NCBI RefSeq assembly: GCF_021531255.1
Contig: NZ_JAFBIO010000001.1
Location: 62,001-126,000 of the forward strand
Reading direction: 5' to 3'
DNA length: 64,000 bases
DNA from: Allofournierella massiliensis
GTDB taxonomy: Bacteria > Bacillota > Clostridia > Oscillospirales > Ruminococcaceae
Shown here: in pieces, positions 3,649-26,671 of the stretch
Layout of the letters: each line of letters starts with the position of its first letter
Numbering within the stretch: position 1 is the stretch's first letter
Notes under the pieces: model-generated
The model's database searches: none
The model's input: only the letters and a program-made list of their open reading frames with translations
Told to the model about the DNA's origin: nothing
Made by a program: the position numbers and the translations under genes

Positions 3649-5196
3649 ATGAACAAGACAGCAATAAAAAACTTTGCGGTATGGGCACGAAGAAAGCTCA
3701 TCGCCGATATTACATACAGAGCAGGCATGCTGGGTATTACCGAGGGCGGTATTGCGCAGCCTATGCAGCAGTCCACCAAGGACCTGCAGTTCTTTGACAT
3801 TGGAACGAAGGATTACGTTGAGATTTCTGGAGAGGAAATCAAACAGCGCAACGCCCTTATTGCGGCTATTCGCAAAAAAGAAGGCAGCACAAATTATAAA
3901 GAAGCCTTCCAAAATGTCGTGGAAGAGGTTGCTTATACCTGGTTCAACCGCCTGATTGCTGTCCGTTTCATGGAAGTCAACGACTATCTCCCTTCTCGCA
4001 TTCGTGTCCTCTCTGCAGAGAATCCGAACAAGCTGGAGCCGGACTTTGTAACCACCCCCTTCGATACGGATATGGAGTTCACTCCTTATGAGAAGGACCG
4101 TGTACTGCAACTGAAGGAAGATAACAAGTTAGACGAACTGTTCCGTTTCCTGTTCATCAAGCAGTGCAACAAGCTTGGGGAGATTCTTCCCGAACTGTTT
4201 GAGCAGATTTCAGACTACACCGAACTTCTCCTGAACATTTCCTTCACCGACAAAGACGGTGTTATCTATCACCTGACTCATGACATTGATGAAGACGATT
4301 TCAATGTCTCCATGGAAGGTCAGGTTGAGATCATCGGTTGGATGTACCAGTACTACAATACTGAGCCAAAGGATGAAGTCTTTGCCCTTCTGAAAAAGAA
4401 CGTAAAGATCACCAAGGAACGCATTCCTGCAGCAACCCAGCTGTTTACTCCTGACTGGATCGTTCGCTACATGGTTGAGAACTCTCTTGGCCGCCTTTGG
4501 GTGGAGGGTCATCCAAATGAAGGGCTAAAATCCGAATGGAAGTATTATCTGGAAGAGGCTGAACAGGAGCCGGAAGTTGTTGCACAGCTTGAAAAGATTC
4601 GAGCTGAATATGCAGAATTGAATCCGGAAGACATCAAGGTAATTGATCCCTGCATGGGTTCCGGTCATATCCTGGTTTATGCTTTTGATGTTCTGATGCA
4701 GATATACGAGGCACAGGGCTATACCCAGCGTGACGCTGCAAAGAGCATACTGAAGAACAATCTGTATGGTATCGATATTGATACCCGTGCATATCAGCTG
4801 GCTTACTTCGCTGTCATGATGAAGGCACGCCAGTACAACCGCAGAATCTTCAACGAACATATCATGCCGAACCTGATGGCGGTAAAGAACACCGGCACCA
4901 TTAGTAAGTATGCCTTGAAACGTCTTGGCGAGCATGAGAAGCTTGCAAAGCGCCTGATGGACGACTTCGTCGATGCAGAAGAATACGGTAGCATTTTGGA
5001 TATTCACTATTCAGAAGACGAGCTGGATGCCTTGCAGGAGAAGGTAAATTCTGTCAATGAATTTGCTGATATACCGGATCTTTTGGCACAAATGGAGTGT
5101 GGTGAGTGTAAATCTGTTATCGTCCCGCTGATTCGTCAGGCACGTATCATGGGACAGAAATATGATGTGGTAGTGACGAACCCACCTTATATGGGC
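3649..5196 (+). repeat. Direct repeat, 5' part of pglX (copy A; partner 15973-17520)
   Basis: The first roughly 1.5 kb of the two pglX genes are the same length without obvious indels and differ only by scattered, mostly synonymous changes up to the NPPYMG codons. Both copies point the same way, about 12.3 kb apart, so they are a substrate for homologous recombination. Percent identity was not computed. Confidence 0.88.
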
Positions 5197-7341
5197 GCGT
5201 CAAATATGAATGCAAAACTTAACGAGTTTATCAAGTTAAACTATACAGATTATAAATCTGACTTTTTTTCCGCTTTTGTTGTTAAATGTACGTTGTTAGC
5301 AAAGCCATATGGCTTTCTTGGGTTCTTAACGCCATATGTTTGGATGTTTATCCAATCATATGAGAATATGAGAGAGTATCTTTACGATAATGCGACTATT
5401 CAAACTTTAATTCAATTCGAGTATTCTGCATTTGAAGAGGCCACCGTTCCAATTTGTACTTTCACATTCAGAAATTACTATGTTAACAATTATTATGGTG
5501 GATACTTTAATTTGACGAATTTTCGTGGAGGTATGGAAGTTCAACGGGTAAAAACTCTTGAGGCAATCAACAATAGTGCGTGTGGATATTATTATGCGCA
5601 AAGCACATATCATTTTGAGGAATTGCCAGGACGACCTTTGGCATATTGGATTAGTACTAATACAATTAATGATTTTCAATCGCCTGTTCATGTTGATGAT
5701 GTTTCTGAGACCCGAATCGGAATGGCAACAGCAGACAATGACCGCTTTATGCGAATGTGGTTTGAAATTGCAATTAATAAGGCTGGACTAATTTGCTCTT
5801 CAAGGCAGGAGGCCGAACAATCTAATAAAAAATGGTTCACATATTATAAAGGCGGAAGCTTCCGGAAATGGTACGGCAATATCGACTATGTGGTGAACTG
5901 GGAACATGATGGCTTTGAAATCAGAAATTTTATAGACGAAAAAACGGGGCGCATTCGCTCACATAATTACAACCTTGATTATATTTTTACTCCAGGACTT
6001 ACGTTTACTGCGATAAGCAGCAGTAATTTTGCTTGCCGGACTATGGATAATGGTCTATTCGGGAGTGGCGGATCAGGTGTTTGCCGCGTGAGTAACGAGA
6101 ATCGATTTCCGTTACTCGGATTCCTAAACTCAAATGTTGCAGCATACTTAATGTCATGTTTGAGTCAAACGATGAACTTCGAAGTTAATATGGTGGGAAG
6201 TTTACCATATATCAAGGATTCGAAACATGCCAAAGTTGAAGAAATCGTCTCCGCTGCCATTAGTAATTCAAAATCAGATTGGGATTCTTTTGAAACATCA
6301 TGGAATTTCAAAGTTCATCCCTTATTGAAATGGCGCAGTACATCTGATGAAGAACGCACTGTTGCCAACAGCTGTGGTGATGTGGCAGTACAATCACCGC
6401 TGGAATACGCCTGGACAATGTGGATGTTAGAGTGTGATGAACGCTTCAACCAACTGAAGGCAAATGAAGAAGAACTGAACCGTATCTTCATTGATATCTA
6501 CGGTCTTCAGGATGAGCTGACTCCTGAGGTTGAAGATAAAGATGTTACCGTTCGCAAAGCGGACCTTCAGCGAGATATCAAGAGCCTGATTTCCTACGCT
6601 GTTGGCTGCATGTTTGGCCGGTATTCTCTGGATGTACCTGGACTTGCTTATGCGGGCGGAGAATGGGATGGGAGCAAGTATTCCTCCTTCCTACCGGACG
6701 AGGATAACTGCATTCCTATAACCGATGAAGAATACTTCCAGGATGATATTGTAGGCCGTTTTGTTGAATTCATCCGTGTTGCCTATGGAGCAAATTCTCT
6801 GGAGGAAAATCTTGAATTTGTTGCAGATGCACTAGGAAACAAAGGAAAGACTGCACGAGATACTATCCGTCAGTATTTCCTGAATGATTTCTTCAAAGAT
6901 CACTGCCAGACCTATTCTGTCACCGGATCTGGAAAGCGTCCGATTTATTGGCTCTTCAATTCCGGTAAGCAGAACGGATTCAAAGCACTGGTTTATATGC
7001 ATCGTTGGACGGCAGATACCGTTGGTAATGTTCGTGTGGAATACCTTCACAAGATGCAGCTTGTCTATGAAAAAGAAATGGAAACCTGCCAGGATATCAT
7101 AGACAATAGCCTTGATCGACGCGAGATTGCTGCCGCTACAAAGCGAAAGGAAAAGCTGGTTAAGCAGCTGAAGGAATGCAAGGATTACGATGCAAAGGTC
7201 GCACATATAGCACTGTCCCGAATTGCAATTGATCTGGACGACGGCGTAAAGGTCAACTACCGCAAGGTTCAGACCGGTGCGGACGGCAAGTTCTGCGAGA
7301 TCCTTGAGGACTCAAAGAACATTATGGCAAAGGAGAAATAA
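3649..7341 (+). CDS. pglX: BREX-1 adenine-specific DNA methyltransferase PglX, copy 1
   Basis: A 1230-residue N6-adenine methyltransferase that marks host DNA and sets BREX target specificity. The SAM-binding motif is DPCMGSGH at about residues 333-340 and the catalytic motif is NPPY at 511-514. The N-terminal part and the last roughly 300 residues are almost the same as in the second copy at 15973-19710, while residues about 515-925 differ strongly. That divergent block sits behind the catalytic motif, where target recognition is expected. It is preceded by GAGAGGGTAAGTGAT and an ATG. It ends KEK-TAA at 7341, four bases before the next gene. A second pglX may give the host two methylation specificities or a store of sequence for recombination. 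Confidence 0.93.
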   Translation: MNKTAIKNFAVWARRKLIADITYRAGMLGITEGGIAQPMQQSTKDLQFFDIGTKDYVEISGEEIKQRNALIAAIRKKEGSTNYKEAFQNVVEEVAYTWFNRLIAVRFMEVNDYLPSRIRVLSAENPNKLEPDFVTTPFDTDMEFTPYEKDRVLQLKEDNKLDELFRFLFIKQCNKLGEILPELFEQISDYTELLLNISFTDKDGVIYHLTHDIDEDDFNVSMEGQVEIIGWMYQYYNTEPKDEVFALLKKNVKITKERIPAATQLFTPDWIVRYMVENSLGRLWVEGHPNEGLKSEWKYYLEEAEQEPEVVAQLEKIRAEYAELNPEDIKVIDPCMGSGHILVYAFDVLMQIYEAQGYTQRDAAKSILKNNLYGIDIDTRAYQLAYFAVMMKARQYNRRIFNEHIMPNLMAVKNTGTISKYALKRLGEHEKLAKRLMDDFVDAEEYGSILDIHYSEDELDALQEKVNSVNEFADIPDLLAQMECGECKSVIVPLIRQARIMGQKYDVVVTNPPYMGASNMNAKLNEFIKLNYTDYKSDFFSAFVVKCTLLAKPYGFLGFLTPYVWMFIQSYENMREYLYDNATIQTLIQFEYSAFEEATVPICTFTFRNYYVNNYYGGYFNLTNFRGGMEVQRVKTLEAINNSACGYYYAQSTYHFEELPGRPLAYWISTNTINDFQSPVHVDDVSETRIGMATADNDRFMRMWFEIAINKAGLICSSRQEAEQSNKKWFTYYKGGSFRKWYGNIDYVVNWEHDGFEIRNFIDEKTGRIRSHNYNLDYIFTPGLTFTAISSSNFACRTMDNGLFGSGGSGVCRVSNENRFPLLGFLNSNVAAYLMSCLSQTMNFEVNMVGSLPYIKDSKHAKVEEIVSAAISNSKSDWDSFETSWNFKVHPLLKWRSTSDEERTVANSCGDVAVQSPLEYAWTMWMLECDERFNQLKANEEELNRIFIDIYGLQDELTPEVEDKDVTVRKADLQRDIKSLISYAVGCMFGRYSLDVPGLAYAGGEWDGSKYSSFLPDEDNCIPITDEEYFQDDIVGRFVEFIRVAYGANSLEENLEFVADALGNKGKTARDTIRQYFLNDFFKDHCQTYSVTGSGKRPIYWLFNSGKQNGFKALVYMHRWTADTVGNVRVEYLHKMQLVYEKEMETCQDIIDNSLDRREIAAATKRKEKLVKQLKECKDYDAKVAHIALSRIAIDLDDGVKVNYRKVQTGADGKFCEILEDSKNIMAKEK
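6430..7336 (+). repeat. Direct repeat, 3' part of pglX (copy A; partner 18766-19675)
   Basis: After the divergent centre the two pglX genes become alike again at the codons for KANEEELNRIFIDIYG and stay alike almost to the end. The two homologous arms flank a variable middle, as in cassette-type specificity genes. Identity looks lower than in the 5' arm. Confidence 0.82.
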
Positions 7342-7345
7342 GCGA

Positions 7346-9139
7346 ATGAGTAAAGATAGCATTATTGTTGATAGTAAAGTCTTTTCACTTAAAGGTTTAT
7401 TCTCCGATAAGTTTACAGTCGATTTTTATCAGCGCGAGTATGTATGGGAGCACAAACAGTTGGAAGACCTTATCATGGACCTTTCCAGCGAGTTCCTGAA
7501 GAACTGGCAGCCTGGTCATTCTACGCAAAATGTTTCTACGTATGATCCGTACTTTATGGGAGAGATCGTGCTCTCAAATAAATCCGGAGAAAAAAGCGCG
7601 GTGATCGATGGTCAGCAGCGTATTACAACGTTGACGTTATTGCTAATTTACCTTCTCCGTACATATGGCGCAATGCCGAAGTTCCCAACGGATATCCGTG
7701 ATCTAATCTATGCGGATTACTACGGAGAATACTATTTCAACCTTGATATTCCTGAACGCAGAGAATGTATGCTGTCCCTGTTCAATAAGGGAGAATACAC
7801 AGTACCGAAGGATGCTTCACCTTCCGTGGTCAACCTTGTAAACCGATATGCAGATATTGCAGAATGCTGGGATAAGCGCATTGATGATACCAATATTGTT
7901 CCGTTTGTATACTGGCTGAAGGAAAAGGTTATGTTCTCCAAGGTTTGGACGAACAGCGATGAGTTTGCCTACGTCATCTTTGAGACGATGAATGACCGTG
8001 GTCTCTCCCTCACTCAGATTGAGATGCTTCGCAGCTACCTTTTGGCAAACACAAACGAAGATTCACGAGACGCAGCTATGACAGAATTTGATGCTGTAAT
8101 TCGTAATCTGGCCCAGGTTAAGCTCAGCTCGAAATCTAAAGCGGAATTTGAATTTTTTAAGATGTATTTCCGTGGACACTATGCAGATGATCTTTCTCAG
8201 GGCAATACTAAGTCAGACTTTGTCCGGATTGGTAAAGAGTTTCATCGTTGGGTAAGTGAAAACAGCAAGAAGCTCAAGCTGGAAAAGTCATCCGATTTTG
8301 TCGAGTTTATTCATCGAATCAAATATTTTGCGGATGTCTATCACAAAATCAATGCTCTGATTCAGAGCAGAAATACGGTTGATTATTTGTACCTCATAGT
8401 AAACAGCGACTATGGCTTTACCATGCAGCCTGCAGTCATCATGTCTGCCGTTTCATATAATGACAGTGATAAGGTTGTTGATGAGAAAATCAAGATTGTA
8501 TCTCGGTACCTTACAAAGGTGTTGACATATCGAGTTTGGAACCACTGGATGATTTCGCAGAGTGCGCTTGAGGCTAAGTCTTATGAGTTGTGTAAAGCAA
8601 TTCGTGGTATGGATACAGACGCGCTTCAGCGGCATCTGGCAACGGATCCTCTGGAAGCGCCTGCATTGTCGGGCACTCCGACTCTGAACCAACAGAACAG
8701 ACGACGCTTTATGGTAATGATTTCTCTGATTACAGAGATTGTTGCCTCGAGGTCAAAAACACCGGACTATCCGTTGAACCATCCGGATATTGAGGTTGAG
8801 CACATTTGGGCTAATCATTTTGAAGACCATACAGACGAGTTCAGAGACGAGGCAGAGTTTGCTACAGCTCGTAACAGCATTGGTGATTTGCTCGTTCTGC
8901 CAAAGAGCTTTAATGCTTCTTATGGTGACGATCCGTATACTTCTAAGGTTGAGCAGTACTTCTCTCAGAATATATTGGCGCAAACTCTGAATGAGAGAAA
9001 ATATACTAATAATCCGGGTTTCATGGCATTTATGAATATTAGCGGATTACCTTTTAAGCCTTATTCCAAGTTCACAAAGAATTCTATCAGCGAGAGAACA
9101 ACCCTTTATCGTCTAATCCTGGAGGATCACTGGAAATAA
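7346..9139 (+). CDS. DUF262/DUF1524 GmrSD-type restriction endonuclease (BrxU-like)
   Basis: A 597-residue single-chain protein. The N-terminal DUF262 (GmrS-like) domain has QREYVW at residues 29-34 and IDGQQRITTL from about 87. The C-terminal DUF1524 (GmrD-like) HNH nuclease has EVEHIW (H486) followed by the ARNSIGDLLVLP and NASYGD segment. Fused GmrSD proteins are nucleotide-driven type IV enzymes that cut modified phage DNA; BrxU is the known member from a BREX locus and complements BREX against phages with modified bases. The start is ATG at 7346, just behind AAGGAG at the end of pglX; a longer frame from 7277 overlaps pglX and looks spurious. That it is the functional equivalent of BrxU is inferred from domain order and context. 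Confidence 0.86.
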   Translation: MSKDSIIVDSKVFSLKGLFSDKFTVDFYQREYVWEHKQLEDLIMDLSSEFLKNWQPGHSTQNVSTYDPYFMGEIVLSNKSGEKSAVIDGQQRITTLTLLLIYLLRTYGAMPKFPTDIRDLIYADYYGEYYFNLDIPERRECMLSLFNKGEYTVPKDASPSVVNLVNRYADIAECWDKRIDDTNIVPFVYWLKEKVMFSKVWTNSDEFAYVIFETMNDRGLSLTQIEMLRSYLLANTNEDSRDAAMTEFDAVIRNLAQVKLSSKSKAEFEFFKMYFRGHYADDLSQGNTKSDFVRIGKEFHRWVSENSKKLKLEKSSDFVEFIHRIKYFADVYHKINALIQSRNTVDYLYLIVNSDYGFTMQPAVIMSAVSYNDSDKVVDEKIKIVSRYLTKVLTYRVWNHWMISQSALEAKSYELCKAIRGMDTDALQRHLATDPLEAPALSGTPTLNQQNRRRFMVMISLITEIVASRSKTPDYPLNHPDIEVEHIWANHFEDHTDEFRDEAEFATARNSIGDLLVLPKSFNASYGDDPYTSKVEQYFSQNILAQTLNERKYTNNPGFMAFMNISGLPFKPYSKFTKNSISERTTLYRLILEDHWK

Positions 9140-9187: not shown

Positions 9188-11575
9188 ATGCAAAAGCAGA
9201 TTAAGCTTCTGTATGACCCTTATGAAAATCAAATAAAGTTCTCAATTTCTCAGGATGGCGGAGAAACATGGGACAGAATATCCGAAACCTCTGACCTTCG
9301 TAGGTATGAGAATCAGAATTGCGTCCTGGCGAACTGCGCTGAGGATATTGTCAGCATCATCAACAAATACCAGAATGTCGGTGTAGAAGGCGTGTTAGTC
9401 TGCTTTGAGGGAACGGAAGAAGACTTCGATTTGCTCCAAGAGGTCATAGAACGCGAGAATAAGGCAAATTCAAATGGAGGAAAGATTTCTTCTGTGAGAA
9501 TTGCTTCCTTCAAGTCTGCAGATGAGGCTATCGAAATTATTAGAACAGCATACGATAGAATATCTTCTGAGTTTTCTGATTATCTTCCGGAATGTGAAGG
9601 CTTTGAAGATATGGCGGCTGACGAGCAGGAAATTGGGCAAACCATAAGTACTTTCAATTCTACTGTAAGTACTGAAATTCCTGTTTGTATTATCGGCACA
9701 TACAGCATTGGTAAGTCTGCATTGATAAATGCTATTGTCGGTGCTGAGGTCCTGCCCAGTGCAGTGAAACAGTGTACTGCAAAGAATGTTCGGGTCATTG
9801 ACGCTGATTGCTACACTATCACGATAGAATTTGACGATAAGGAAATAGCATTTTCTGTGAGCAAAGGCGGAATCGTCGCCGTTGATACCTCCGATGAGGC
9901 AGAAGAATTAACAGCTGCTCTTCAAAAATTGATTGATTTCTCCGAGATGGATGAAGTGACTGCTATCCGGAACATTCTCCGCGTACTAAACGGTGAAATT
10001 AAGAGTGATATCTCTGCTTCTATAGGATTCAATGTGACAATCTCGCTTCCGTTTAAAGGATCGATATTAAACAACGAAACGGCACACATTGTGCTTTACG
10101 ATACCCCAGGAAGTGACAATAGTGATGTAGATCAGCGTGCACATCGTGTTGCATTGGAAGAAATGATGCAACATCAGACTAATGCACTGCCAGTATTCAT
10201 CATGGATCGTGAGCATGCGCTTTCCAATGATCACAAAGACGTTAAAACTCTCATTGATGGAAACAAGTCCGGTTTTTCAAGTCCAAACTGTATCATTGTT
10301 TTTTCAAAAGCTGAGCGACTAACGGAATCCCAGTATCGTGAAGAAATACCTACAACGCTCATAAACTGGCATGGTGGAATCACTTTCCTGCATGTCTGCG
10401 CAATAGGTGCACTTGGAGCCAAAAAAAGCGGTGAGACTTGGAGCGATTCTCAATACGAGGAAGTGTATAGAGATTGGTATAGAAAATATTCAGAGGACGG
10501 AAAATCTCTTCCTAAGTACAATCGTGTTCCTTGCGGAAGAATTATGGAGTCCAGCGTTAGGAATTGTGTTTCGGATGAACTCTTTGCATCTGGAATTCCA
10601 TCCCTGGAAGATGAAATAAACTACTATGTTCTCCGATACGCAAATTATAAGAAGTGTGTCAACGGCCGCGAACTACTTCTTCAGGCAATGGAACTAGCTA
10701 AGAAAAAGCTTCAAAAAGAGGAACAGCGCTTAAAACAAGATAAAAAGAAAAAAGAAGAAGAACAAGCAAGCATCCGAAATCAGTTGCTTACCCAAATGCG
10801 CAGCGTCTCTCCTCAGAAAATTGATGTTTACAATCTTGCCCGCAGCTATGACAAAGTATTGCATGCGTATTTCCAAACTGTCCCTAGAGCCGTTGAACAA
10901 GCTTGGCGCAATGCCCAAACCAAAACTGACAAAAAGGCATACATGATTGAAACCCTTCAAACTCATTGCATGGAGAATCTTTTTATTCCGACATATGAAG
11001 GAGAAAATGGCATAGCTCATCAAATAATCAAGAGACTGGTTGACTATGCTGGAGCGTATATTTCTAAACTCCGTCAAATAGTCGAGGAACGCCAAGATAG
11101 TCTATCGCAAGAAGCGCGTTCAGAACTCGAAGAGACCTTTAGCAGCATTGATATGCCTGAATTTGAGTCCATAGGCATAAAAGGGGCATTTACCTTGCTA
11201 GAGTTTTCGAGCTTCCTAAATTTCAAGTGGCTTGAAGAGAAGGGACTCGAATCTATCGCAAATAGTATTTGTACAAATTTGGACATTCATAAAAAAGGAA
11301 TTTTCAAGAAAACTAGCTATTATGGTGCTTTCCAAATGCAATGCATTATTAATCCGGTCAATGAGTATCAAAGACAGTTGCAAAAATGGACCGGCGAAAA
11401 CTGCTCTCTCCTTGAGCAGACCATCAATCGGGATAATGCAATCCTAAGCCAGTATGACGCTGAAATTGCCGCAACTGAAGCAAGAATTCAAGATTTGAAA
11501 GAAAGACTGGCTCGTTTAGATGATGTAAGACAGCAGCTAGATGTTGTTCTGTCTATTACGGAAGGAGCTAATTGA
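9188..11575 (+). CDS. Dynamin-like large GTPase
   Basis: A 795-residue protein with a GTPase domain near residues 165-400. The G1 loop is GTYSIGKS (G170-S177), G3 is DTPG (D305-G308) and a G4-like motif is SKAE at 373-376. An N-terminal region of about 150 residues has a pattern I do not recognise. Residues from about 490 on are long charged helices (a lysine/glutamate-rich segment near 505-530 and a final coiled coil near 745-790), as in bacterial dynamin-like proteins that assemble on membranes. There is no signal peptide or membrane span in it, but the next gene, two bases away, encodes a membrane-anchored partner. It is preceded by GAGAGGAG. This is the first gene of a five-gene block placed between the two pglX genes. 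Its role there is not known to me. Confidence 0.82.
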   Translation: MQKQIKLLYDPYENQIKFSISQDGGETWDRISETSDLRRYENQNCVLANCAEDIVSIINKYQNVGVEGVLVCFEGTEEDFDLLQEVIERENKANSNGGKISSVRIASFKSADEAIEIIRTAYDRISSEFSDYLPECEGFEDMAADEQEIGQTISTFNSTVSTEIPVCIIGTYSIGKSALINAIVGAEVLPSAVKQCTAKNVRVIDADCYTITIEFDDKEIAFSVSKGGIVAVDTSDEAEELTAALQKLIDFSEMDEVTAIRNILRVLNGEIKSDISASIGFNVTISLPFKGSILNNETAHIVLYDTPGSDNSDVDQRAHRVALEEMMQHQTNALPVFIMDREHALSNDHKDVKTLIDGNKSGFSSPNCIIVFSKAERLTESQYREEIPTTLINWHGGITFLHVCAIGALGAKKSGETWSDSQYEEVYRDWYRKYSEDGKSLPKYNRVPCGRIMESSVRNCVSDELFASGIPSLEDEINYYVLRYANYKKCVNGRELLLQAMELAKKKLQKEEQRLKQDKKKKEEEQASIRNQLLTQMRSVSPQKIDVYNLARSYDKVLHAYFQTVPRAVEQAWRNAQTKTDKKAYMIETLQTHCMENLFIPTYEGENGIAHQIIKRLVDYAGAYISKLRQIVEERQDSLSQEARSELEETFSSIDMPEFESIGIKGAFTLLEFSSFLNFKWLEEKGLESIANSICTNLDIHKKGIFKKTSYYGAFQMQCIINPVNEYQRQLQKWTGENCSLLEQTINRDNAILSQYDAEIAATEARIQDLKERLARLDDVRQQLDVVLSITEGAN

Positions 11576-11576
11576 T

Positions 11577-11939
11577 ATGAAAACAATCGAAAACCATGTA
11601 CTGCAATTAGCTGAAGATATCTACGCTGGCAGATGCAGTTATCAGAAAGCCGAAATCAGAATTCAGTCTCTAGAGAAGGAATTCGAAGCGGTTGATCGAG
11701 ACATTGCATATCCTGCATTCCCTGATATCGTTACAAAAGATTACCTTGATGAGTTAATAGGTCGTGTTCGAGTTGGACTCTATTCAAAACAGCTGCTATT
11801 GGATTTGGCAAAAGCATCCGACATGCTTCATGCAACCAAAGGCAAACATATCGATATTAAGAAACCTGTAATTGCCGGTATTGCAATCGCTGCTGCATTG
11901 ATAATCGCAATAATTATTGCGGTAGGCATAGGAGAATAA
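11577..11939 (+). CDS. Small C-tail-anchored membrane protein
   Basis: A 120-residue protein I do not recognise. Residues 1-95 are soluble and helical. One hydrophobic segment at the very C-terminus (AGIAIAAALIIAIIIAVGIG) should anchor it with the N-terminus in the cytoplasm. The start is ATG at 11577, behind GGAAGGAG inside the end of the GTPase gene and one base after its stop; the ATPase gene begins two bases after its own stop. This tight spacing suggests all three are made together. A likely role is to tie the GTPase or the ATPase to the membrane; this is inference. Confidence 0.7.
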   Translation: MKTIENHVLQLAEDIYAGRCSYQKAEIRIQSLEKEFEAVDRDIAYPAFPDIVTKDYLDELIGRVRVGLYSKQLLLDLAKASDMLHATKGKHIDIKKPVIAGIAIAAALIIAIIIAVGIGE

Positions 11940-11941
11940 CT

Positions 11942-14872
11942 ATGGGACAAAAAATTGATAATTCAATCCAGCTTCCGTCTGCAAGGGATATTTCTGCAGC
12001 TGATAAAGCAGCAAGAGACATACTTGGGAGATATTCCGCTAAGGTCTTCAAATCATATCTGCCTCGTATATCGAAGGATTATGACGTGGTTAAGCTTGGT
12101 ACGGGCAGATCTCCGGAAGAATCCGTCGCTTTTTTTGACGTTACAAAACTGATTATCGAAGAAGACGGTAATCTGATTGAAAAGCTCAAAAATGTCTATC
12201 ATTTACTGGCGTATTCTCGAAACAGCATTGGTCTGATTATTCATAGAACGCATGATACTTGTCGTATCTCCCTTGCAGTTGGAATGAAGAATAGAGATTC
12301 TGAAGCCGTCGCAAAGCTTGGGGAAACGATTCGTGATGCTCTTATGGGAAATTTCCCCGGCTCTGCTTGTTCCGGGATTGGTTACTATGGGTTCAATGCA
12401 GGCAATCCATTTGCATCCTTGAATGAAGAAACTTATTTTAATTCGGAAAGCATTGAGTCTTTTAATTCAATAGCAATTGCATCAAACATTGCTTCAGAGT
12501 TCTCTAAGGATTATATCGAGCAGGGACTTGAAAAAGTTCTCGATGGAATTATTCCCGCAAAGAAGCAGGAATACACAATCATCCTGTTGGCGGAAGCTAT
12601 TGACGATGAGCTCCTTGAAGAACGCAGACAAAGCCTGTACCAGACATACACTTGGCTGAGTCCACTTTCCAAACGCACAGAGAACTGGTCCTTCCAGGAA
12701 GGACAAAACTGGGGGAAGAATGCAAATGCTAACTTGATCGTTGTTGGAGCAGGCAGCAATTCTGGCGGATCCACTTCTTCTACTCAGGGGGCATCTGTCG
12801 AAATCAACCAGTATGCGGTATCTCATACCATGGAGATTATCGAGAAGCAGATGGAGCGCATTGAGCATTGCGCCGCACTGGGGGCATATGACTTCTCTGC
12901 ATATGTGCTTTCTCCAAATTGTCAACTTGCGAGTGAAGTGGCTCATATGTACATGTCTCTTACTCAGGGTAATGAGTCTTATTATGAGAAGCCGTCTATT
13001 AATGTTTGGAATGCACAGAAGGATGAAAAAACAAGAGAAAAGATTTCCCGGATGGCTGAATACTTGCGTAGGCTAACGCATCCGTCATTTACGAGCGGTA
13101 AAGAATCAGCTTCAGTTAAGGCAACTGCAACGATTTCCGGTGCAGAACTGGCTCACGCTATGAGTCTGCCTCGTAAGTCCCTGCCGGGATTTGCCACAAT
13201 TAGGTGCGCTGCATTTGGTCGTGAGATTACATCTTACGATTCTGAATATACTGGCAGTGTTCATCTTGGCTGTATACATCATATGCACCGAGATGAAGAG
13301 AAAGCCGTCGAGCTGAATAAAAACTCATTTGCTTCTCATGTATTTGTAACAGGTTCTACTGGCTCTGGTAAGAGTAACGCTATCTATACCTTGCTGGATT
13401 CTCTTAGGACTAAGTTCATGGTCATTGAACCGGCAAAGGGAGAATATAAATATGCCTTTACAAAGGATGTAAAGGTCTATGGCACAAATCCCCAAATATG
13501 TGAACTCCTCCGGATCAATCCATTTGTTTTTAATTCAGGAATACACGTGTATGAGCATATCGATCGTCTGTTGGATGTATTCAATGTCTGCTGGCCGATG
13601 TATGCCGCTATGCCTGCTGTTCTAAAAGATGCGATTATTAAAGCTTATGAAGACTGCGGATGGAACTTAATTACCTCTCAGAATAGCAAGGGTGATATTT
13701 ATCCGACATTTGAAGACGTTTGCGCTGAGATAGATGAGATTATTACTCATTCTGATTACTCGGATGAGAATAAAGGTAATTATCGTGGCTCATTAAAAAC
13801 TAGGTTAACATCTCTCACAAATGGAATTAACCGTCTGATTTTCTGTAACGGTGATATTTCGGATGAAAACCTGTTCGAGCAAAATGTCATTATTGATCTA
13901 AGCAGGGTTGGCTCCGCGGAGAATAAATCATTGATTATGGGAATGTTGATTATCCGGCTTCAGGAGTATCGTATGGCAGAAGGATGCATTAATTCCACTC
14001 TGCATCACGTTACGGTATTAGAAGAAGCACATAACATTCTTCGGCATGTTCCAGAAGGTGGTGGAGAATCCGGTAATCTCACACAGAAATCCGTCGAAAT
14101 GATTTCCAACGCAATTGCTGAAATGCGAACATACGGTGAGGGATTTGTCATTGCAGATCAGGCACCAGGCTTGCTGGACATGTCAGTCATTCGCAATACC
14201 AACACAAAAATCATTCTCAGGCTCCCGGATAAGAGCGATCGAGAGCTGGTTGGACGAGCAGCCAATCTGACGGATGCTCAGATCAACGAACTGGCAAGTC
14301 TGCAGCGTGGAGTTGCTGCCATTTATCAAAATGAATGGACAGAACCGATTCTTTGCAAAATCAAGAAATATGAAACGGCCTTTTCTTTTAACGATAGACC
14401 AGGATGCAAACCATATCCGCAAGAAGATTCTACTGCTCGTAAGTTTGTTAATTCATGCGTGTATGATCCCTTGTACCTTCAGCGGCATTCTGAACGCGAG
14501 TTTATCGATGCACTTGGAAAAATTCGTGTTGAAGGAATTGTAAAAGCACGCCTGCTGGATTATGTCCGTACACCGTTTGAAGCGCAGCGTAACGTGTGGC
14601 AGAAGGTGGCTTTCAGTTATTTCAAATTAAATCAGTGTGTATGCAAGAAAGATATAGGATTGTCCGAATGGCAGAATGCATTGACACGGCAGCTTCAGAA
14701 TTATGAGTTTGATGCAAAAATCGATCTTGCTACGAATTCCGAGTCGTTTTACAGATTCACTCAGATTATGACGCTTGAGGCAATTGTCGAACTAGGCAGT
14801 CGTCAGCCTGAGATTAGCTTGAAATTATCGGAACTGATGAAGGATTATCGAGGAATATTTGGTAAAGCATAA
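11942..14872 (+). CDS. HerA/FtsK/VirB4-type DUF87 ATPase
   Basis: A 976-residue protein. An N-terminal domain of about 440 residues is followed by an ATPase domain with Walker A GSTGSGKS (G471-S478), Walker B VLEEAHNIL (E694, E695) and a sensor-like IADQAPGLLD segment near residue 737. This is the layout of the HerA/DUF87 family, hexameric motors that move DNA or protein; some act as the motor half of phage-defence pairs with a nuclease or hydrolase. Here the genes after it encode an HNH toxin-like protein and a SUKH-like protein, so it may drive or control that nuclease. It shows no membrane span. The sequence does not tell whether DNA or protein is the substrate. Confidence 0.8.
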   Translation: MGQKIDNSIQLPSARDISAADKAARDILGRYSAKVFKSYLPRISKDYDVVKLGTGRSPEESVAFFDVTKLIIEEDGNLIEKLKNVYHLLAYSRNSIGLIIHRTHDTCRISLAVGMKNRDSEAVAKLGETIRDALMGNFPGSACSGIGYYGFNAGNPFASLNEETYFNSESIESFNSIAIASNIASEFSKDYIEQGLEKVLDGIIPAKKQEYTIILLAEAIDDELLEERRQSLYQTYTWLSPLSKRTENWSFQEGQNWGKNANANLIVVGAGSNSGGSTSSTQGASVEINQYAVSHTMEIIEKQMERIEHCAALGAYDFSAYVLSPNCQLASEVAHMYMSLTQGNESYYEKPSINVWNAQKDEKTREKISRMAEYLRRLTHPSFTSGKESASVKATATISGAELAHAMSLPRKSLPGFATIRCAAFGREITSYDSEYTGSVHLGCIHHMHRDEEKAVELNKNSFASHVFVTGSTGSGKSNAIYTLLDSLRTKFMVIEPAKGEYKYAFTKDVKVYGTNPQICELLRINPFVFNSGIHVYEHIDRLLDVFNVCWPMYAAMPAVLKDAIIKAYEDCGWNLITSQNSKGDIYPTFEDVCAEIDEIITHSDYSDENKGNYRGSLKTRLTSLTNGINRLIFCNGDISDENLFEQNVIIDLSRVGSAENKSLIMGMLIIRLQEYRMAEGCINSTLHHVTVLEEAHNILRHVPEGGGESGNLTQKSVEMISNAIAEMRTYGEGFVIADQAPGLLDMSVIRNTNTKIILRLPDKSDRELVGRAANLTDAQINELASLQRGVAAIYQNEWTEPILCKIKKYETAFSFNDRPGCKPYPQEDSTARKFVNSCVYDPLYLQRHSEREFIDALGKIRVEGIVKARLLDYVRTPFEAQRNVWQKVAFSYFKLNQCVCKKDIGLSEWQNALTRQLQNYEFDAKIDLATNSESFYRFTQIMTLEAIVELGSRQPEISLKLSELMKDYRGIFGKA

Positions 14873-14894
14873 TTAATAGAAGGAGGTTTTCTCG

Positions 14895-15554
14895 ATGGCA
14901 ATTCCAGTAGTAATAAAAGCAGTAGAAGTTGCAAGCGAGGTAGCTACTTCTGCCAAAGTGATAGACTTATCTACGATGGTTTCTGATGCCCAGGCCATTG
15001 CTAATGAAGTGTGGCCTAAAGCGAAAGAAATCCCGTCGGCTATTGAAACCGAGATTACCCCTGAAACTATAGCTGAAGAAACCTGGGAATCAACAATCGC
15101 CGAAAATCTGAAGCGCGAGCTGGATGCAACATTACATAAGTACTTTGATGACCTCAAAGAAAAATCTGATGTTAGGGACACCCTTGACGATGCTCCTTTC
15201 GATATAACGGAATTGAGAGCGCTGTCGCCAGAAGAAAATGCACTTATGCGCGAAGAATTTGCTCTGAAAAAGAATGCTTTGAAGAGGCAATGGGAGGAAA
15301 CAAATAATCGCCCATGGCCTAAGTATGACAAGGATGTTTATATCACAAATGCTGAAGGCGATTCCGTTCTCATTCGAAAAGCTGGAATGGACTATGATGC
15401 ACATCATATTCAACCGCTTTCACTTGGTGGTAAAAATGAGGCTCGAAATCTTACGCCGCTCAGCGCAGATATTCACTTTGATCACAAAGGAATTCATAAG
15501 TTAGGAAGCCCATATGATCAGATAAGTAAAATGTTAGGAGGAACCGACTTATGA
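14895..15554 (+). CDS. HNH nuclease, polymorphic-toxin type
   Basis: A 219-residue protein with an N-terminal helical part (residues 1-110), a basic linker and a C-terminal HNH domain: DAHHIQPLSLGGKNEARNLTPL with H170/H171, then HFDHKGIH. The spacing matches the HNH domains at the ends of polymorphic toxins rather than the CBASS Cap5 HNH. It has no signal peptide. It begins behind AGGAGG and overlaps the SUKH-like gene by four bases. The close pair with a likely immunity protein argues that it harms the producing cell, for example by cutting DNA when released. Unlike secreted toxins it is short and sits after a HerA-type ATPase, which fits an internal effector. Function is inferred. Confidence 0.8.
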   Translation: MAIPVVIKAVEVASEVATSAKVIDLSTMVSDAQAIANEVWPKAKEIPSAIETEITPETIAEETWESTIAENLKRELDATLHKYFDDLKEKSDVRDTLDDAPFDITELRALSPEENALMREEFALKKNALKRQWEETNNRPWPKYDKDVYITNAEGDSVLIRKAGMDYDAHHIQPLSLGGKNEARNLTPLSADIHFDHKGIHKLGSPYDQISKMLGGTDL

Positions 15555-15907
15555 TGCATGAAGAATTTTTCAAACTTCTCGAGAATACTTCAGTTAATGA
15601 TGAGACTGTGGCCAGTGTAGAAAGTGCTTATAAGTTGACACTTCCGGACACTCTGAAAAAGGTCTTATCAGTCTCAACTGAGGATGTATTCGTAGATGAG
15701 AAAAGATTATTGTCTCTTAGTGAAATACTCTCAGCAGACATTGAGTATGGAACAGCTTTTATTGCGCAGAAACTGATTCCTGTGTTTGACAGTATGGATA
15801 ATGATTTTATCGTATTTGATTTACAGGAGAATACATGGACGATGTTTAACATCGTTGATTTATGTCAGTTTGCAAAGCGTGAATTGTTGGCCGACTATTT
15901 CAATTGA
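15551..15907 (+). CDS. SUKH-like (SMI1/KNR4) immunity protein
   Basis: A 118-residue acidic protein with features of the SUKH superfamily: an early IE/VE-type helix, the LPDTLKKVL segment near residue 32, a SLSEIL motif in the middle, and a DNDFIVFDLQENTWTMFN hairpin near residue 80. SUKH proteins commonly neutralise nuclease toxins encoded just upstream, and this gene overlaps the HNH toxin-like gene (ATG 15551, toxin stop 15552-15554) behind an AGGAGG. Together they look like a toxin-immunity pair. Binding specificity cannot be seen in the sequence. Confidence 0.72.
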   Translation: MMHEEFFKLLENTSVNDETVASVESAYKLTLPDTLKKVLSVSTEDVFVDEKRLLSLSEILSADIEYGTAFIAQKLIPVFDSMDNDFIVFDLQENTWTMFNIVDLCQFAKRELLADYFN

Positions 15908-15972: not shown

Positions 15973-17520
15973 ATGAACAAAACAGCAATCAAAAACTTTG
16001 CGGTATGGGCACGAAGAAAGCTCATTGCCGATATTACATACAGAGCAGGCATGCTGGGTATTACCGAGTCCGGTATTGCACAGCCTATGCAGCAGTCCAC
16101 CAAGGACCTGCAGTTCTTTGACATCGGGACTAAGGACTATGTTGAAATCTCCGGAGAGGAGATCAAGCAGCGCAATGCCCTTATTGCGGCCATTCGCAAG
16201 AAAGAAGGCAGCACGAACTATAAAGAGGCCTTTCAAAATGTTGTGGAAGAGGTTGCCTATACCTGGTTCAACCGCCTGGTTGCTGTCCGTTTCATGGAAG
16301 TCAACGACTACCTCCCATCTCGCATTCGTGTCCTCTCTGCAGAGAATCCGAACAAGCTGGAGCCGGACTTTGTAACCACGCCCTTCGATACAGATATGGA
16401 GTTCACTCCTTATGAGAAGGACCGCGTGCTGCAACTGAAGGAAGATAACAAGCTGGACGAGCTGTTCCGTTTTCTGTTCATCAAGCAGTGCAACAAGCTT
16501 GGTGAGATCCTGCCCGAACTGTTTGAGCAGATCTCTGACTACACTGAACTCCTTCTGAACATTTCTTTCACGGATAAGGACGGAATTATCTATCATCTAA
16601 CTCATGACATCTCTGAGGATGACTTCAATGTCTCCAAAGAAGGTCAGGTCGAGATCATCGGCTGGATGTACCAGTACTACAATACTGAGCCGAAAGATGA
16701 AGTCTTTGCACTTCTGAAGAAGAACGTAAAGATTACTAAAGAACGCATTCCTGCAGCAACCCAGCTGTTTACTCCGGACTGGATTGTTCGCTACATGGTT
16801 GAGAACTCTCTTGGCCGCCTTTGGGTAGAAGGTCATCCAAATGAAGGCCTGAAGTCCGGATGGAAATACTATCTGGAAGAGGCAAAGCAGGAACCTGAAG
16901 TTGTTGCACAACTTGAAAAGATTCGCGCTGAATATGCAGAACTGAACCCGGAAGATATCAAGGTAATTGATCCCTGCATGGGTTCCGGTCATATTCTTGT
17001 ATATGCTTTTGATGTCCTAATGCAGATTTATGAGGCACAGGGCTATACCCAGCGTGACGCTGCAAAGAGCATACTGAAGTACAATCTGTATGGTATCGAT
17101 ATTGATACTCGTGCGTATCAGCTTGCCTACTTTGCTGTCATGATGAAGGCGCGCCAGTACAACCGCAGGATTTTCAACGAACATATCATGCCCAACCTGA
17201 TGGCGGTAAAGAATACCGGCACCATTAGTAAGTATGCACTTAAACGCCTTGGAGAGCACGAAAAGCTTGCGAAGCGGCTAATGGATGATTTCACCGACGC
17301 AGAGGAATACGGCAGCATTTTGGATATTCACTATTCTGCTGAAGCATTGGATGCTCTGCAAGAAAAGATAGATTCTATCAATGAATTTGAAGATATCCCT
17401 GATCTTCTAGCACAAATGGAGTGCGGAGAGTGCAAGTCTGTAATTACTCCTCTTGTTCGTCAGGCTCGTATCATGGGGCAGAAATATGATGCTGTCATTA
17501 CGAATCCTCCATATATGGGT
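15973..17520 (+). repeat. Direct repeat, 5' part of pglX (copy B; partner 3649-5196)
   Basis: Second copy of the 5' pglX arm. Recombination with copy A would delete or excise about 12.3 kb carrying the GmrSD-type gene and the five-gene GTPase/ATPase/toxin module and leave one pglX with the copy-2 centre. Confidence 0.88.
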
Positions 17521-19710
17521 ATCAATAGTATGGGCGGTGAGTTTTATGACTACATTACGACACATCACGAAGCATTTAAGCATGATTTGTATTGTGTTTT
17601 TATTGATGTTTGCCATTGGTTGTTAAAACCCAATCGTTACCAGGCTATGATAACTCAGCAATCTTTCATGTTTAATGCTCGATATGAAAAAGCTAGGACT
17701 GCGATTATTGCAGATAATTCTTGTGTTAATCTTTTGCACTTGGGTGCCCGTGCATTTGAAGAGATTGGCGGAGAAGTTGTCCAGACGGCAACTTATGTTT
17801 TCATGTCAACACATGTAAACGGGTTAAAAGGATATTACTTAGATCTTCAAGATTATCAATCACAAGAATCCAAGGAACAGGCATATACAGTACTTAAAGA
17901 TTCTTTAAGTGAAGGCGTATACAAAAAATCATTGGATGACTTTAGGGATATCTCTGGGTTCAATTATTCCTATTGGCTGTCAAACCAAGTGATCAAGGCA
18001 CTGGGAAACAAAAAAACAATTGCAACAATTGCTGAAACTCGTCACGGACTGGTGACGGGTAGCGGCGAGAAATTCATGAGATTATGGCCAGAAATCAGTC
18101 AGAAGAAATTCAACACATCGATTGACAATGCAAGCTTGGATACTGTCGGTACAACATGGTTCCCTTATAACAAGGGTGGAACAATGAGACGCTGGTATGG
18201 AAACAGAGAATACGTTGTTAATTGGGAAAATAACGGCTTTTTAATTCGAAACTATAGGAACGAAAAGGGAAAGCTCAAATCCTCGAATTATAATAATGAA
18301 TTCAATTGCCAGCCTGACATTTCTTGGACAGATATTTCAACTGGATTATTTTCGGCCAGATATACTCCCCAAGGCGCATTGTTTGATACTTCTGGGCCGT
18401 CACTCTTTTTGAAATCACAAGAATATTCGGACTACTTGCTTGGACTAATGAATTCAAAGGTCATGCAAAAGTTCTTGGATGTATTTTGTGTCGGACTTCA
18501 CTATAGCACTGGTTCTGTAGCCTCTATACCATTAGTTGTTGAACGAAAAGCTGAGGTCGAGTACTTAGTGCAAGAATGTTTGCAGATAGCCGTCTCGGAA
18601 TGGGATAGCTATGAACTGTCGTGGGATTATCAAGAGCATCCATTAGTTGCATTATCTAAAGGGCTTTGGGACGCAACAGCTATTGGAGCTTCAATGCACT
18701 ACTATTATGGCGGACACCCAGAAGTCTCCTGTCCTCTTGAACTTTGCTTCATGCTCTGGCAGGGCGAGTGTAATGAGAGGTTTAAGCGACTCAAGGCGAA
18801 CGAAGAAGAGCTGAATCGTATCTTCATTGACATCTACGGACTTCAGGATGAATTGACATCTGAAGTTGAGGATAAGGACGTGACTGTTCGCAAGGCAGAT
18901 TTGCAGCGGGATATCAAGAGCCTGATTTCCTATGCAGTTGGCTGCATGTTTGGGCGATATTCTCTGAATGTACCTGGTCTTGCTTATGCGGGCGGCGACT
19001 GGGACAGCAGCAAGTACTCCTCCTTCATGCCAGATGAAGATAATTGTATTCCTATCACTGATGAAGAATACTTCCAGGATGATATCGTCGGACGTTTTGT
19101 GGAATTCATTCGTATCATTTATGGAGAGGATAGTCTGGAAGCAAACCTTGACTATATTGCTAAGGCTCTTGGCAGTAAGGGTAAGACTTCTCGGGATACT
19201 ATCCGTCAGTACTTTCTGAATGATTTCTACAAGGATCATTGCCAGACTTACTCTGTCACCGGTTCTGGCAAACGTCCAATCTATTGGATGTTCAATTCCG
19301 GCAAACAGAATGGATTCAAAGCACTGGTCTACATGCATCGCTGGACTCCGGATACTGTTGGTAATGTCCGCGTGGAATATCTCCACAAGATGGAGCTTGT
19401 CTACGAGAAAGAGATGGAGACCTGTCAGGATATCATTGACAACAGCTTAAACTCACGCGAGATTGCAGCTGCTACTAAGCGCAAGGAAAAACTAGTCAAG
19501 CAGCTGAAGGAATGCAAAGACTATGATGCACTGATGGGCCATATCGCAGGCTCAAGAATCGGCATTAATCTGGACGATGGCGTAAAGTTGAATTACCGGC
19601 TGGTTCAGACTGGTAAAGACGGTCGTTTCTGTGAGATTCTCGCAGATTCCAAAGATATTATGATTAAGGAGAACTCTGAAATATGGCAGAACTTAGTTTC
19701 AAGCAGATAA
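15973..19710 (+). CDS. pglX: BREX-1 adenine-specific DNA methyltransferase PglX, copy 2
   Basis: A 1245-residue paralogue of the first pglX, in the same orientation. The first 514 residues are nearly the same, with DPCMGSGH at about 333 and NPPY at 511-514. The centre (about 515-935) is largely different, starting at NPPYMGINSMGG against NPPYMGASNMNA, and the last roughly 300 residues match again. The C-terminus differs: where copy 1 ends KEK-TAA, copy 2 reads on for about a dozen residues and stops inside pglZ, a 28-base overlap. It starts behind CGGAGGAAATAGA. The two copies probably methylate different sites. Which of them works with PglZ and BrxL is unknown. Confidence 0.93.
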   Translation: MNKTAIKNFAVWARRKLIADITYRAGMLGITESGIAQPMQQSTKDLQFFDIGTKDYVEISGEEIKQRNALIAAIRKKEGSTNYKEAFQNVVEEVAYTWFNRLVAVRFMEVNDYLPSRIRVLSAENPNKLEPDFVTTPFDTDMEFTPYEKDRVLQLKEDNKLDELFRFLFIKQCNKLGEILPELFEQISDYTELLLNISFTDKDGIIYHLTHDISEDDFNVSKEGQVEIIGWMYQYYNTEPKDEVFALLKKNVKITKERIPAATQLFTPDWIVRYMVENSLGRLWVEGHPNEGLKSGWKYYLEEAKQEPEVVAQLEKIRAEYAELNPEDIKVIDPCMGSGHILVYAFDVLMQIYEAQGYTQRDAAKSILKYNLYGIDIDTRAYQLAYFAVMMKARQYNRRIFNEHIMPNLMAVKNTGTISKYALKRLGEHEKLAKRLMDDFTDAEEYGSILDIHYSAEALDALQEKIDSINEFEDIPDLLAQMECGECKSVITPLVRQARIMGQKYDAVITNPPYMGINSMGGEFYDYITTHHEAFKHDLYCVFIDVCHWLLKPNRYQAMITQQSFMFNARYEKARTAIIADNSCVNLLHLGARAFEEIGGEVVQTATYVFMSTHVNGLKGYYLDLQDYQSQESKEQAYTVLKDSLSEGVYKKSLDDFRDISGFNYSYWLSNQVIKALGNKKTIATIAETRHGLVTGSGEKFMRLWPEISQKKFNTSIDNASLDTVGTTWFPYNKGGTMRRWYGNREYVVNWENNGFLIRNYRNEKGKLKSSNYNNEFNCQPDISWTDISTGLFSARYTPQGALFDTSGPSLFLKSQEYSDYLLGLMNSKVMQKFLDVFCVGLHYSTGSVASIPLVVERKAEVEYLVQECLQIAVSEWDSYELSWDYQEHPLVALSKGLWDATAIGASMHYYYGGHPEVSCPLELCFMLWQGECNERFKRLKANEEELNRIFIDIYGLQDELTSEVEDKDVTVRKADLQRDIKSLISYAVGCMFGRYSLNVPGLAYAGGDWDSSKYSSFMPDEDNCIPITDEEYFQDDIVGRFVEFIRIIYGEDSLEANLDYIAKALGSKGKTSRDTIRQYFLNDFYKDHCQTYSVTGSGKRPIYWMFNSGKQNGFKALVYMHRWTPDTVGNVRVEYLHKMELVYEKEMETCQDIIDNSLNSREIAAATKRKEKLVKQLKECKDYDALMGHIAGSRIGINLDDGVKLNYRLVQTGKDGRFCEILADSKDIMIKENSEIWQNLVSSR
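18766..19675 (+). repeat. Direct repeat, 3' part of pglX (copy B; partner 6430-7336)
   Basis: Second copy of the 3' pglX arm. Recombination between the 3' arms would keep the copy-1 centre and lose the copy-2 centre, so loss of the module could leave either specificity. Confidence 0.82.
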
Positions 19711-26534: not shown

Positions 26535-26546
26535 TATTTCGCAAAT

Positions 26547-26618: not shown

Positions 26619-26631
26619 TAATAATCACATC

Positions 26632-26648: not shown

Positions 26649-26671
26649 TATAGATGAAAGGAATTAAAGCC

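Follow-up and report, generated by a model that had tools for sequence, protein, structure and literature searches.

What kind of system is encoded by the five tightly packed genes that interrupt a BREX island of Allofournierella massiliensis? The window, i.e., the whole stretch of 64,000 nucleotides that was analysed, carries at 9188-15907 five open reading frames, all on the + strand, for a GTPase, a small protein, an ATPase, an HNH protein and a SUKH protein (Table 1). Their successive spacings of +1, +2, +22 and -4 bases bear out the arrangement described in the earlier note, five same-strand genes 1-22 bases apart or overlapping between two pglX copies. The start of the small gene was taken as the ATG at 11577, the mechanical ORF list beginning that frame at 11541. 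The module is placed between the gene of a GmrSD-type protein, which we take to be BrxU-like, and the second pglX, the two pglX copies forming a direct repeat (300 nt at 92% and 300 nt at 83%); PglZ and BrxL are also encoded in the flanks of the module, and the island contains a CBASS pair as well. No named system with this gene set was found in the model libraries and the literature searched, the latter by titles and the starts of abstracts, with preprints and subscription journals thinly covered.

Table 1. Positions in the window of the module's features and of neighbouring genes
Feature	Position	Strand	Basis
First PglX, context	3649-7341		PglX model match
GmrSD-type restriction protein, context, outside module	7340-9139	+	GmrSD_N 3.8e-30, GmrSD_C 7.1e-8
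GTPase, dynamin-like, 795 aa, GxxxxGKS, DTPG, long helical part	9188-11575	+	ORF, Dynamin_N, AF2 model, Foldseek
Small protein, 120 aa, one C-terminal hydrophobic stretch (tail-anchor-like)	11577-11939	+	ORF, hydropathy
HerA/DUF87 ATPase, 976 aa, short Ser/Gly-rich linker	11942-14872	+	DUF87, TrwB_AAD_bind, family alignment
HNH protein (putative toxin), 219 aa, whole gene	14895-15554	+	ORF
Putative toxin N-terminal tag, residues 1-68	14895-15098	+	local alignment scores against L018, L020
Putative HNH nuclease toxin domain	15120-15554	+	conserved residues, AF2 model, Foldseek, profile match
SUKH-family putative immunity protein, 118 aa	15551-15907	+	SMI1_KNR4, cluster c11, family alignment
Second pglX, context	15973-19710	+	same cluster c44 as first copy, direct repeat

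The recognisable parts reported previously all find a counterpart in the family and fold matches. The GTPase matches Dynamin_N at 8.6e-14, and its AF2 model (mean pLDDT 84) has SynDLP, BDLP, IniA and a bacterial dynamin pair as top Foldseek matches (E 7e-13 to 1e-11); all 50 listed matches are dynamin-superfamily proteins, with a whole-query TM of only 0.19-0.28. The modelled G domain and helical stalk place the protein in the dynamin superfamily, as predicted from its fold. The small protein reaches a hydropathy of 3.18 over 19 residues in its C-terminal stretch and has no family match above cut-off in Pfam, PADLOC and NCBIfam-type scans, queried with one extra leading residue; in another locus, L077, the hydrophobic-tailed partner appears glycine-zipper-like, by weak Pfam matches below cut-off. 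The ATPase matches DUF87/HerA (2.3e-9) and TrwB_AAD_bind (3.5e-7), a conjugation coupling-protein model, and its solved relatives comprise HerA 4d2i (3.9e-21) and seven further sequences. Against the NCBIfam HerA_antiphage models NF042943 and NF042944 it scores 51 of 800 and 38.8 of 850 bits, both below the cut-off.

The Pfam HNH match of the fourth protein is weak (0.012, below the Pfam cut-off), but the AF2 model of its HNH domain has Rhs2-CT (9t38/8cm0) as best Foldseek match (prob 1.00, TM by target 0.60-0.61, best E 2.4e-3), a profile of the domain matches the Rhs2 chain at 5.2e-5, and the domain is accordingly modelled with the fold of this T6SS toxin. H170-H171 (15402-15407), N185, H194 and H201 are invariant across 8 aligned HNH domains. 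The SUKH protein matches SMI1_KNR4/SUKH-1 at 9.3e-6 (26.7 bits against a cut-off of 25.4), and an immunity role for the gene downstream of the toxin is suggested by its family; its cluster, c11, comes after the HNH toxin type in 9/9 cases in the HerA loci examined. The available part of PMC4524185 likewise presents Rhs2-CT/RhsI2 of Serratia marcescens (PDB 8cm0, 9t38) as a DNase of HNH toxin fold held by an immunity protein; unlike the window toxin, Rhs2 is described there as a T6SS effector, and the window's immunity family has no solved relative below E 0.05. Three plasmid records carry the window's HNH domain, and its immunity protein was found in none of the plasmid records. An LXG-like toxin (LXG being judged by eye) also ends in this HNH type and has a SUKH-like gene after it.

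The module is by no means confined to this island. Among the best 80 of 577 HerA relatives, ranked by likeness to the HerA family alignment, GTPase, toxin and immunity genes all lie beside HerA in 63 loci from five named phyla, and such recurrence outside BREX, the test proposed in the earlier note, upholds the view of one module of an unnamed kind. The gene order is found again in further genera and phyla, the set of GTPase, HerA, toxin and immunity genes is also found on four plasmids, and the core is present in both Gram-positives and Gram-negatives. A constant association with BREX core genes was not found: PglX, PglZ and BrxL-type genes occur within seven genes only in L042 among 95 other loci, a count based on shared clusters with the window's copies of these proteins, which diverged BREX genes could escape. 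A toxin-family gene directly follows HerA in 85/96 loci, no more than 50 b away in all but one of them (84/85), and the median toxin-immunity gap is -1, i.e., the genes overlap. The GTPase, HerA, toxin and immunity genes of the previously proposed five-gene set do recur, but the set is not fixed: in the 79 loci where a GTPase gene lies upstream on the same strand, HerA is preceded by a hydrophobic-tailed gene in 26, by another gene in 2 and by none in 51 (near relative L020 included), so that the tail-anchored gene is optional, and some loci carry two GTPases in a row.

The picture is looser in evenly sampled genomes than in the best 80 of 577 loci. In a phylum-level sample, HerA was detected at 1e-20 in 8/398 genomes, the organism's own included, and the 7 others comprise 3 with GTPase, HerA, nuclease and SUKH and 4 with other partners; in an order-level sample (13/295 genomes at 1e-40), the 12 others have a recognised toxin right after HerA in 7 cases, before it in 1 and none in 4, 4 of these 12 contigs, judged by their length, already belonging to the set of 80. 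A near-identity search with a plasmid copy gave 1/5,426 positive E. coli genomes. Phage cargo was considered and rejected, HerA relatives being seen in 8 viral-collection loci and 2 unannotated phage records.

The last two genes behave as a swappable cassette: the toxins fall into at least eight types, each of which has an immunity family of its own, the pairing being nearly one to one. As a rule the gene after HerA is predicted to be a short toxin (cluster c2: median 220 aa, range 142-620) in which a tag that goes with the core lineage precedes an exchangeable toxin domain, and the next gene would encode the immunity protein of that toxin type. In the neighbourhoods of HerA loci, 88/91 immunity-cluster genes come immediately downstream of a toxin gene; one of the 3 unpaired genes is the partner of an opposite-strand module. 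Families seen in relatives include WHH/Colicin-DNase and Endonuclease_NS_2 among the toxins and YezG-like, PoNi and SUKH among the immunity proteins. The HNH-SUKH pair of the earlier note does occur in HerA loci with nine HNH-c11 pairs, but as one among at least eight toxin-immunity types it is rejected as an essential pair; a tie of this pair mostly to secreted toxins, which was to count against the module, was found only in part, the LXG-like case standing against the nine pairs in HerA loci.

What the earlier picture lacked is that the toxin bears an N-terminal tag going with the ATPase lineage. Residues 1-68 of the window toxin are common to L018 and L020, its HerA-nearest relatives, which have different toxin domains (local scores of 149 and 98 against shuffle maxima of 60 and 58, 500 shuffles each), and its HNH domain is common to other toxins with different N-termini. 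The N-terminus thus appears to follow the HerA lineage while the C-terminus swaps. On the HerA tree, the tag changes 5 times (300 shuffles: mean 21.7, lowest 16) and the toxin type 19 times (mean 26.7, lowest 22) over the same 45 rows, those without a pattern or toxin class being dropped; the tag therefore seems to track HerA more than toxin type does, the latter being itself non-independent of the tree, since 19 lies below all 300 shuffles. The four tag motif patterns were written after inspecting the sequences and are thus post hoc; they match 53/105 toxin-like proteins, with a shuffled rate of at most 0.9% per pattern, and 52/105, the window toxin included, fit none. In tandem cassettes, 6/12 second toxins fit a pattern, 5 of the 6 the same as the first toxin's, two of these 5 being near-identical contigs.

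The exchange of a C-terminal toxin domain against a constant N-terminus and an immunity gene just downstream are shared with polymorphic toxin systems, as are the toxin and immunity families, as far as the accessible part of the 2012 account goes (PMC3482391). Unlike the systems covered there, the module's toxins are short, have a short tag and are linked to a GTPase/HerA operon, and Pfam scans detected no LXG, RHS, PAAR or VgrG domain in the window toxin and nine relatives' toxins, nor in three further nuclease toxins and two hydrophobic proteins at the toxin place.

Several neighbourhoods point to defence. L020 lies between Wadjet JetC/JetD and McrBC, and L042 after pglX-pglZ-brxL; the pglX of L018 is an N-terminal fragment only, fused to a peptidase tail. 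With PADLOC at 1e-15, 130 flank proteins match 206 models and 115 control proteins match 4, a comparison that counts models, not proteins; the flank sample took 130/265 eligible proteins (at most 700 aa, three nearest per locus, loci L018-L075, core clusters left out) and the controls 15 stretches from three genomes only. Many flank families around HerA loci are ordinary. A same-strand WYL regulator occurs at most seven genes upstream in 15/64 loci with room, a WYL model being matched by 2/115 control proteins; in the window, the WYL gene is at 25557-26534, and none lies just upstream of the module.

Among known systems, HerA pairs with SIR2, DUF4297 and others in HerA-nuclease anti-phage systems. 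The module resembles these in having a HerA-family ATPase beside a nuclease effector in defence islands, the window's adjacent gene being a nuclease by Rhs2-CT fold and profile match. It differs from them in the dynamin-like GTPase and optional membrane anchor before HerA, in using as effector a swappable toxin that bears a tag and comes with a dedicated immunity gene, and in an ATPase that falls far below the HerA_antiphage cut-off. Its GTPase has the fold of bacterial dynamins (SynDLP, BDLP, IniA, pair 5owv), and many loci share with them two GTPases in a row; Eleos is a dynamin-type defence system, and from both the module is set apart by its partner genes. Scanned against PADLOC, whose models may or may not include Eleos, the GTPase gives no match at E up to 0.1. 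A GTPase switch, variable effectors and a frequent membrane link recall the GAP1 GTPase-centred conflict systems, which are defined by double GTPase and GAP1 in the part of the study available (Kaur et al., 2020, PMC7159879); neither a GAP1 nor a double-GTPase match is listed for the window's five proteins in Pfam and NCBIfam scans. One distant HerA relative, L012, has a GAP1-like appearance, by eye only.

By sequence, the dynamin-like GTPase and HerA-family ATPase make up the common core, with an optional membrane-anchored partner, and the best explanation, to which we assign a probability of about 0.5, is a modular toxin-deploying immune operon directed against phages or plasmids within the cell that carries it, in which a tag-reading GTPase/HerA core would deploy a plug-in toxin. 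Through the tag, toxin and immunity protein would be docked together, at the inner membrane face, on either the HerA ring or the GTPase; phage or plasmid entry might trigger the GTPase through membrane disturbance and/or HerA through DNA binding, and nucleotide hydrolysis would strip or outpace the immunity protein, which would guard the uninfected cell. The freed toxin, here a putative HNH DNase, would destroy the cell's DNA, with the loss of the invader and usually the host. Defence islands and WYL regulators favour such own-cell defence, and with it the abortive system suggested earlier, beside which its export alternative stands; the 63/80 loci support a conserved core with a cassette, and the near one-to-one pairing, the 88/91 immunity genes right after a toxin, the tag following HerA (in the tree counts and the window chimera comparison) and the presence of one core in Gram-positives and Gram-negatives also support it. 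The non-independence of toxin type from the HerA tree weighs against the immune operon, and the lack of a WYL gene just upstream in the window, the ordinary flank families and the pglX fragment of L018 weaken the argument from context.

The main rival is toxin export, which we regard as rather unlikely: GTPase, anchor and HerA ring would form or load a new translocase, recognise the tag and send the toxin into neighbours, with the immunity protein shielding the producing cell and its kin. A dedicated immunity protein and a C-terminal toxin part that can be swapped typically mark toxins delivered into rival cells, which weighs against own-cell defence, as do the match of HerA to TrwB_AAD_bind and the LXG-like toxin that ends in the window's HNH type and is followed by a SUKH-like gene. 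The toxin and immunity types, from the Rhs2-CT fold to the families of the relatives, are those of secreted polymorphic toxins, the lineage-linked tag resembles a secretion signal, the GTPase and the hydrophobic-tailed partner are of membrane type, and tandem second toxins sharing the first toxin's tag fit export cargo as well. Export is opposed by the defence-island setting, by a core serving both Gram-positives and Gram-negatives, by few unpaired immunity genes in the neighbourhoods (3/91) and by the displayed operons, beside which no envelope channel or injector gene was seen by inspection. Somewhat more tentatively than the immune operon itself, and with slightly more doubt than belief, we suggest that a machine of dynamin-like GTPase, anchor and HerA ring reads tags and loads or moves interchangeable toxins, be it as a new secretion route or as an immune effector loader.

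It is improbable that the last two genes are an addiction (toxin-antitoxin) cassette stabilising an island or plasmid, with the core having another, unrelated task: plasmids and a few virus-collection contigs do carry the module and the two genes do overlap, but the toxin is closely linked to HerA and tied to the core by its tag, and SUKH/YezG-type immunity proteins are stable inhibitors, not labile antitoxins. A chance cluster of unrelated genes has a negligible probability; BREX islands gather auxiliary nucleases, as the part available of PMC12839542 reports, but recurrence in 63 of the best 80 of 577 loci and on unrelated plasmids refutes it.

Should the core deploy its tagged toxins within the cell, it would represent a defence system with warfare toxins and their antidotes as plug-in effectors; should it export them, it would be a secretion machine that has a dynamin and a HerA motor as its basis. 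Under either reading, a broad HerA family without a name, of which at least 577 relatives were found, would gain a likely role, and there would be a testable code linking tag and core.

The five open reading frames, all on the + strand, were confirmed in the positions given by the earlier note, and their spacing is tight, as in a single transcription unit, with AGGAG-type stretches resembling ribosome-binding sites preceding the ATG of the GTPase and of the toxin. The GTPase carries a Dynamin_N domain (8.6e-14, family scan), and its model (mean pLDDT 84) best matches SynDLP, BDLP, IniA and a bacterial dynamin pair; the small protein after it has a single, C-terminal hydrophobic stretch. The ATPase belongs by family alignment to one cohesive HerA family, scores far under the cut-offs of the NCBI named HerA equivalogs, and has a Ser-rich linker, inside which some relatives (loci L011, L017; by eye) hold glycine-rich hydrophobic stretches. 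In the HNH domain of the toxin, H170, H171, N185, H194 and H201 are kept in 8/8 aligned sequences; by fold it comes closest to Rhs2-CT (prob 1.00, E 2.4e-3), whose structure was determined together with that of its immunity protein, and it has a profile match to Rhs2 (5.2e-5). Earlier work showed that Rhs2-CT degrades DNA and that RhsI2 restrains it (PMC4524185). The fifth protein is SUKH-like (family scan).

A genome scan with the HerA alignment yielded at least 577 relatives, and in the best 80 loci of these the module recurs. Within seven genes of HerA, a GTPase lies upstream in 74 (counting L036, whose GTPase sits in an opposite-strand module), a toxin-family gene in 72, an immunity-cluster gene in 69 and all three in 63, contig ends accounting for some missing partners. 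The upstream GTPase falls in protein cluster c1, except in four loci with septin/IIGP-like c19. These 80 loci span Bacillota (60), Actinomycetota (10), Spirochaetota (6), Campylobacterota (1) and Synergistota (1), with two unassigned. Plasmids also carry the module, in E. coli (two dynamins, hypothetical, ATPase, HNH/ENDO VII nuclease, SMI1/KNR4), Exiguobacterium, and Lactococcus cremoris and Treponema, the last two with a preceding WYL gene; plasmid HerA relatives of Ruminococcus albus, Acinetobacter, Streptomyces, Anabaena and Photobacterium have different partners. At L023, L024, L025 and L079, the dynamin-like GTPase gives way to a run of two or three others (the one scanned matched MMR_HSR1 and Septin), and at the distant L014 and L015 the proteins before HerA are, by eye, Hsp70/actin-like in place of a GTPase. 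At L152, by length the same contig as L036, two HerA modules stand back to back and belong to separate subfamilies: the first has a WHH-type toxin and c8 partner, the second a hydrophobic protein at the toxin place.

Toxin types, defined by clustering of C-termini, have their own immunity clusters. EVHHMP, WHE and PD-(D/E)XK are our motif-based names, and PoNe is named after its PoNi partner.

Toxin types and partner immunity clusters
Toxin type	Immunity cluster	Count
HNH	c11	9/9
LHH	c12	8/9
WHH/Colicin-DNase	c8	11/11
WHE (variant of WHH)	c5 or c14 (members scanned: DUF6985)	18/20
Endonuclease_NS_2 (NS2)	c10	10/12
EVHHMP	c13	6/7
PD-(D/E)XK	c24	3/3
PoNe	c33	2/2
Metallopeptidase	c7	15/19

Cluster c5 also partners four unclassed W-type toxins; outside these pairs stand seven toxin-place proteins (singletons or hydrophobic types) and two c15 pairs. 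The glycine-rich hydrophobic protein at the toxin place of the distant relatives L013-L015 and L036 may act on membranes as an effector. In L026, L028, L031, L033, L037, L038, L040, L041, L043, L098 and L099, the nuclease cassette is followed at +3/+4 by a metallopeptidase-like protein (HEMRHAYQ type) that has a small partner of its own; the type stands at +1 in L055, L067, L080, L087 and L102-L105.

We read the N-terminal part of the toxin as a tag. Its residues 1-68 match the same part of the toxins at the two loci whose HerA is nearest, L018 (local score 149, best of 500 shuffles 60) and L020 (98 vs 58), and show a weak match to third-nearest L019 (53 vs 50), whereas the C-terminal part finds no match in L018, L020 or L019 (36, 24, 30 vs 44, 53, 51). 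The C-terminal part matches L041, L042 and L051 (391, 408, 370; highest shuffle 60), where the N-terminus shows no significant match (scores 23, 37 and 26, reached by 394, 33 and 112 of 500 shuffles). Four short N-terminal patterns are shared among toxins of differing kinds. On the HerA tree, over the same 45 rows, patterns change 5 times and toxin type 19 times, so toxin type has been swapped more than the tag, though its distribution is also non-random. In tandem cassettes, 6/12 second toxins match a pattern, 5 of them sharing that of the first toxin (two of these, L098 and L099, are near-identical).

Taken as a whole, the window is a defence island built in layers from BREX genes, a CBASS pair, GmrSD, the module and a WYL regulator, in the order CBASS pair, pglX, GmrSD, module, second pglX, pglZ, brxL, WYL regulator.

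Features of the island
Feature	Position	Basis or remark
BrxC-type helical domain	within ORF 75-854	family scan
CBASS-like pair	873-3168	within BREX island, directly ahead of pglX
Effector, HNH-SAVED	873-2030	family scan
Synthase, SMODS/DncV-like	2011-3168	family scan
pglX, first copy	3649-7341	
Five-gene module	9188-15907	+ strand
pglX, second copy	15973-19710	
WYL regulator	25557-26534	
Same WYL regulator, with S24/LexA-like repressor and phage-type integrase	25557-27304 and 30612-32018	downstream of brxL

The last three genes suggest an integrated element downstream of brxL. Because the second pglX repeats the first in direct orientation at a distance of ~12.3 kb (300-nt blocks 92% and 83%), the two copies could recombine, which would remove GmrSD and the module and fuse pglX specificities.

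Public annotation names parts of the module and no system, and the five proteins gave no match naming such a set in PADLOC, Pfam or NCBIfam. The literature search found nothing nearer than a 2026 BREX survey, which covers HNH and HerA partners with "GTPase" absent from its main text (PMC12839542), and other GTPase systems, with "dynamin" absent from the main texts (Kaur 2020, 2021; PMC7159879, PMC8195603). Each part is of a type already known; the way they are put together, with a core, a tag and a swappable toxin that has its antidote, is undescribed as far as searched.

That the toxin acts inside its own cell, in defence, has in our judgement about an even chance (roughly 0.5), somewhat likelier than export. 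This reading rests on the settings (BREX genes in the window and at L042, a pglX fragment adjoining L018, Wadjet and McrBC flanking L020), on the PADLOC models matched (206 in 130 flank proteins vs 4 in 115 control proteins from three genomes, models rather than proteins being counted), on a WYL gene upstream in 15/64 loci, on the pairing of 88/91 immunity genes with a toxin (one of the three unpaired belongs to a neighbouring opposite-strand module), and on the same core being found across envelope types. Export of the toxin from the cell, to which the toxin and immunity families, the logic of the tag and the membrane parts all point, we judge the less likely of the two. The HNH type also occurs outside HerA loci: at G268 it forms the end of an LXG-like toxin, with a SUKH-like gene next (labels by eye), in Anoxybacillus the gene after it is annotated as SMI1/KNR4, and in Persicobacter a SUKH-like ORF (by eye) comes next; the cassette therefore seems to have been taken from a shared pool of warfare toxins.
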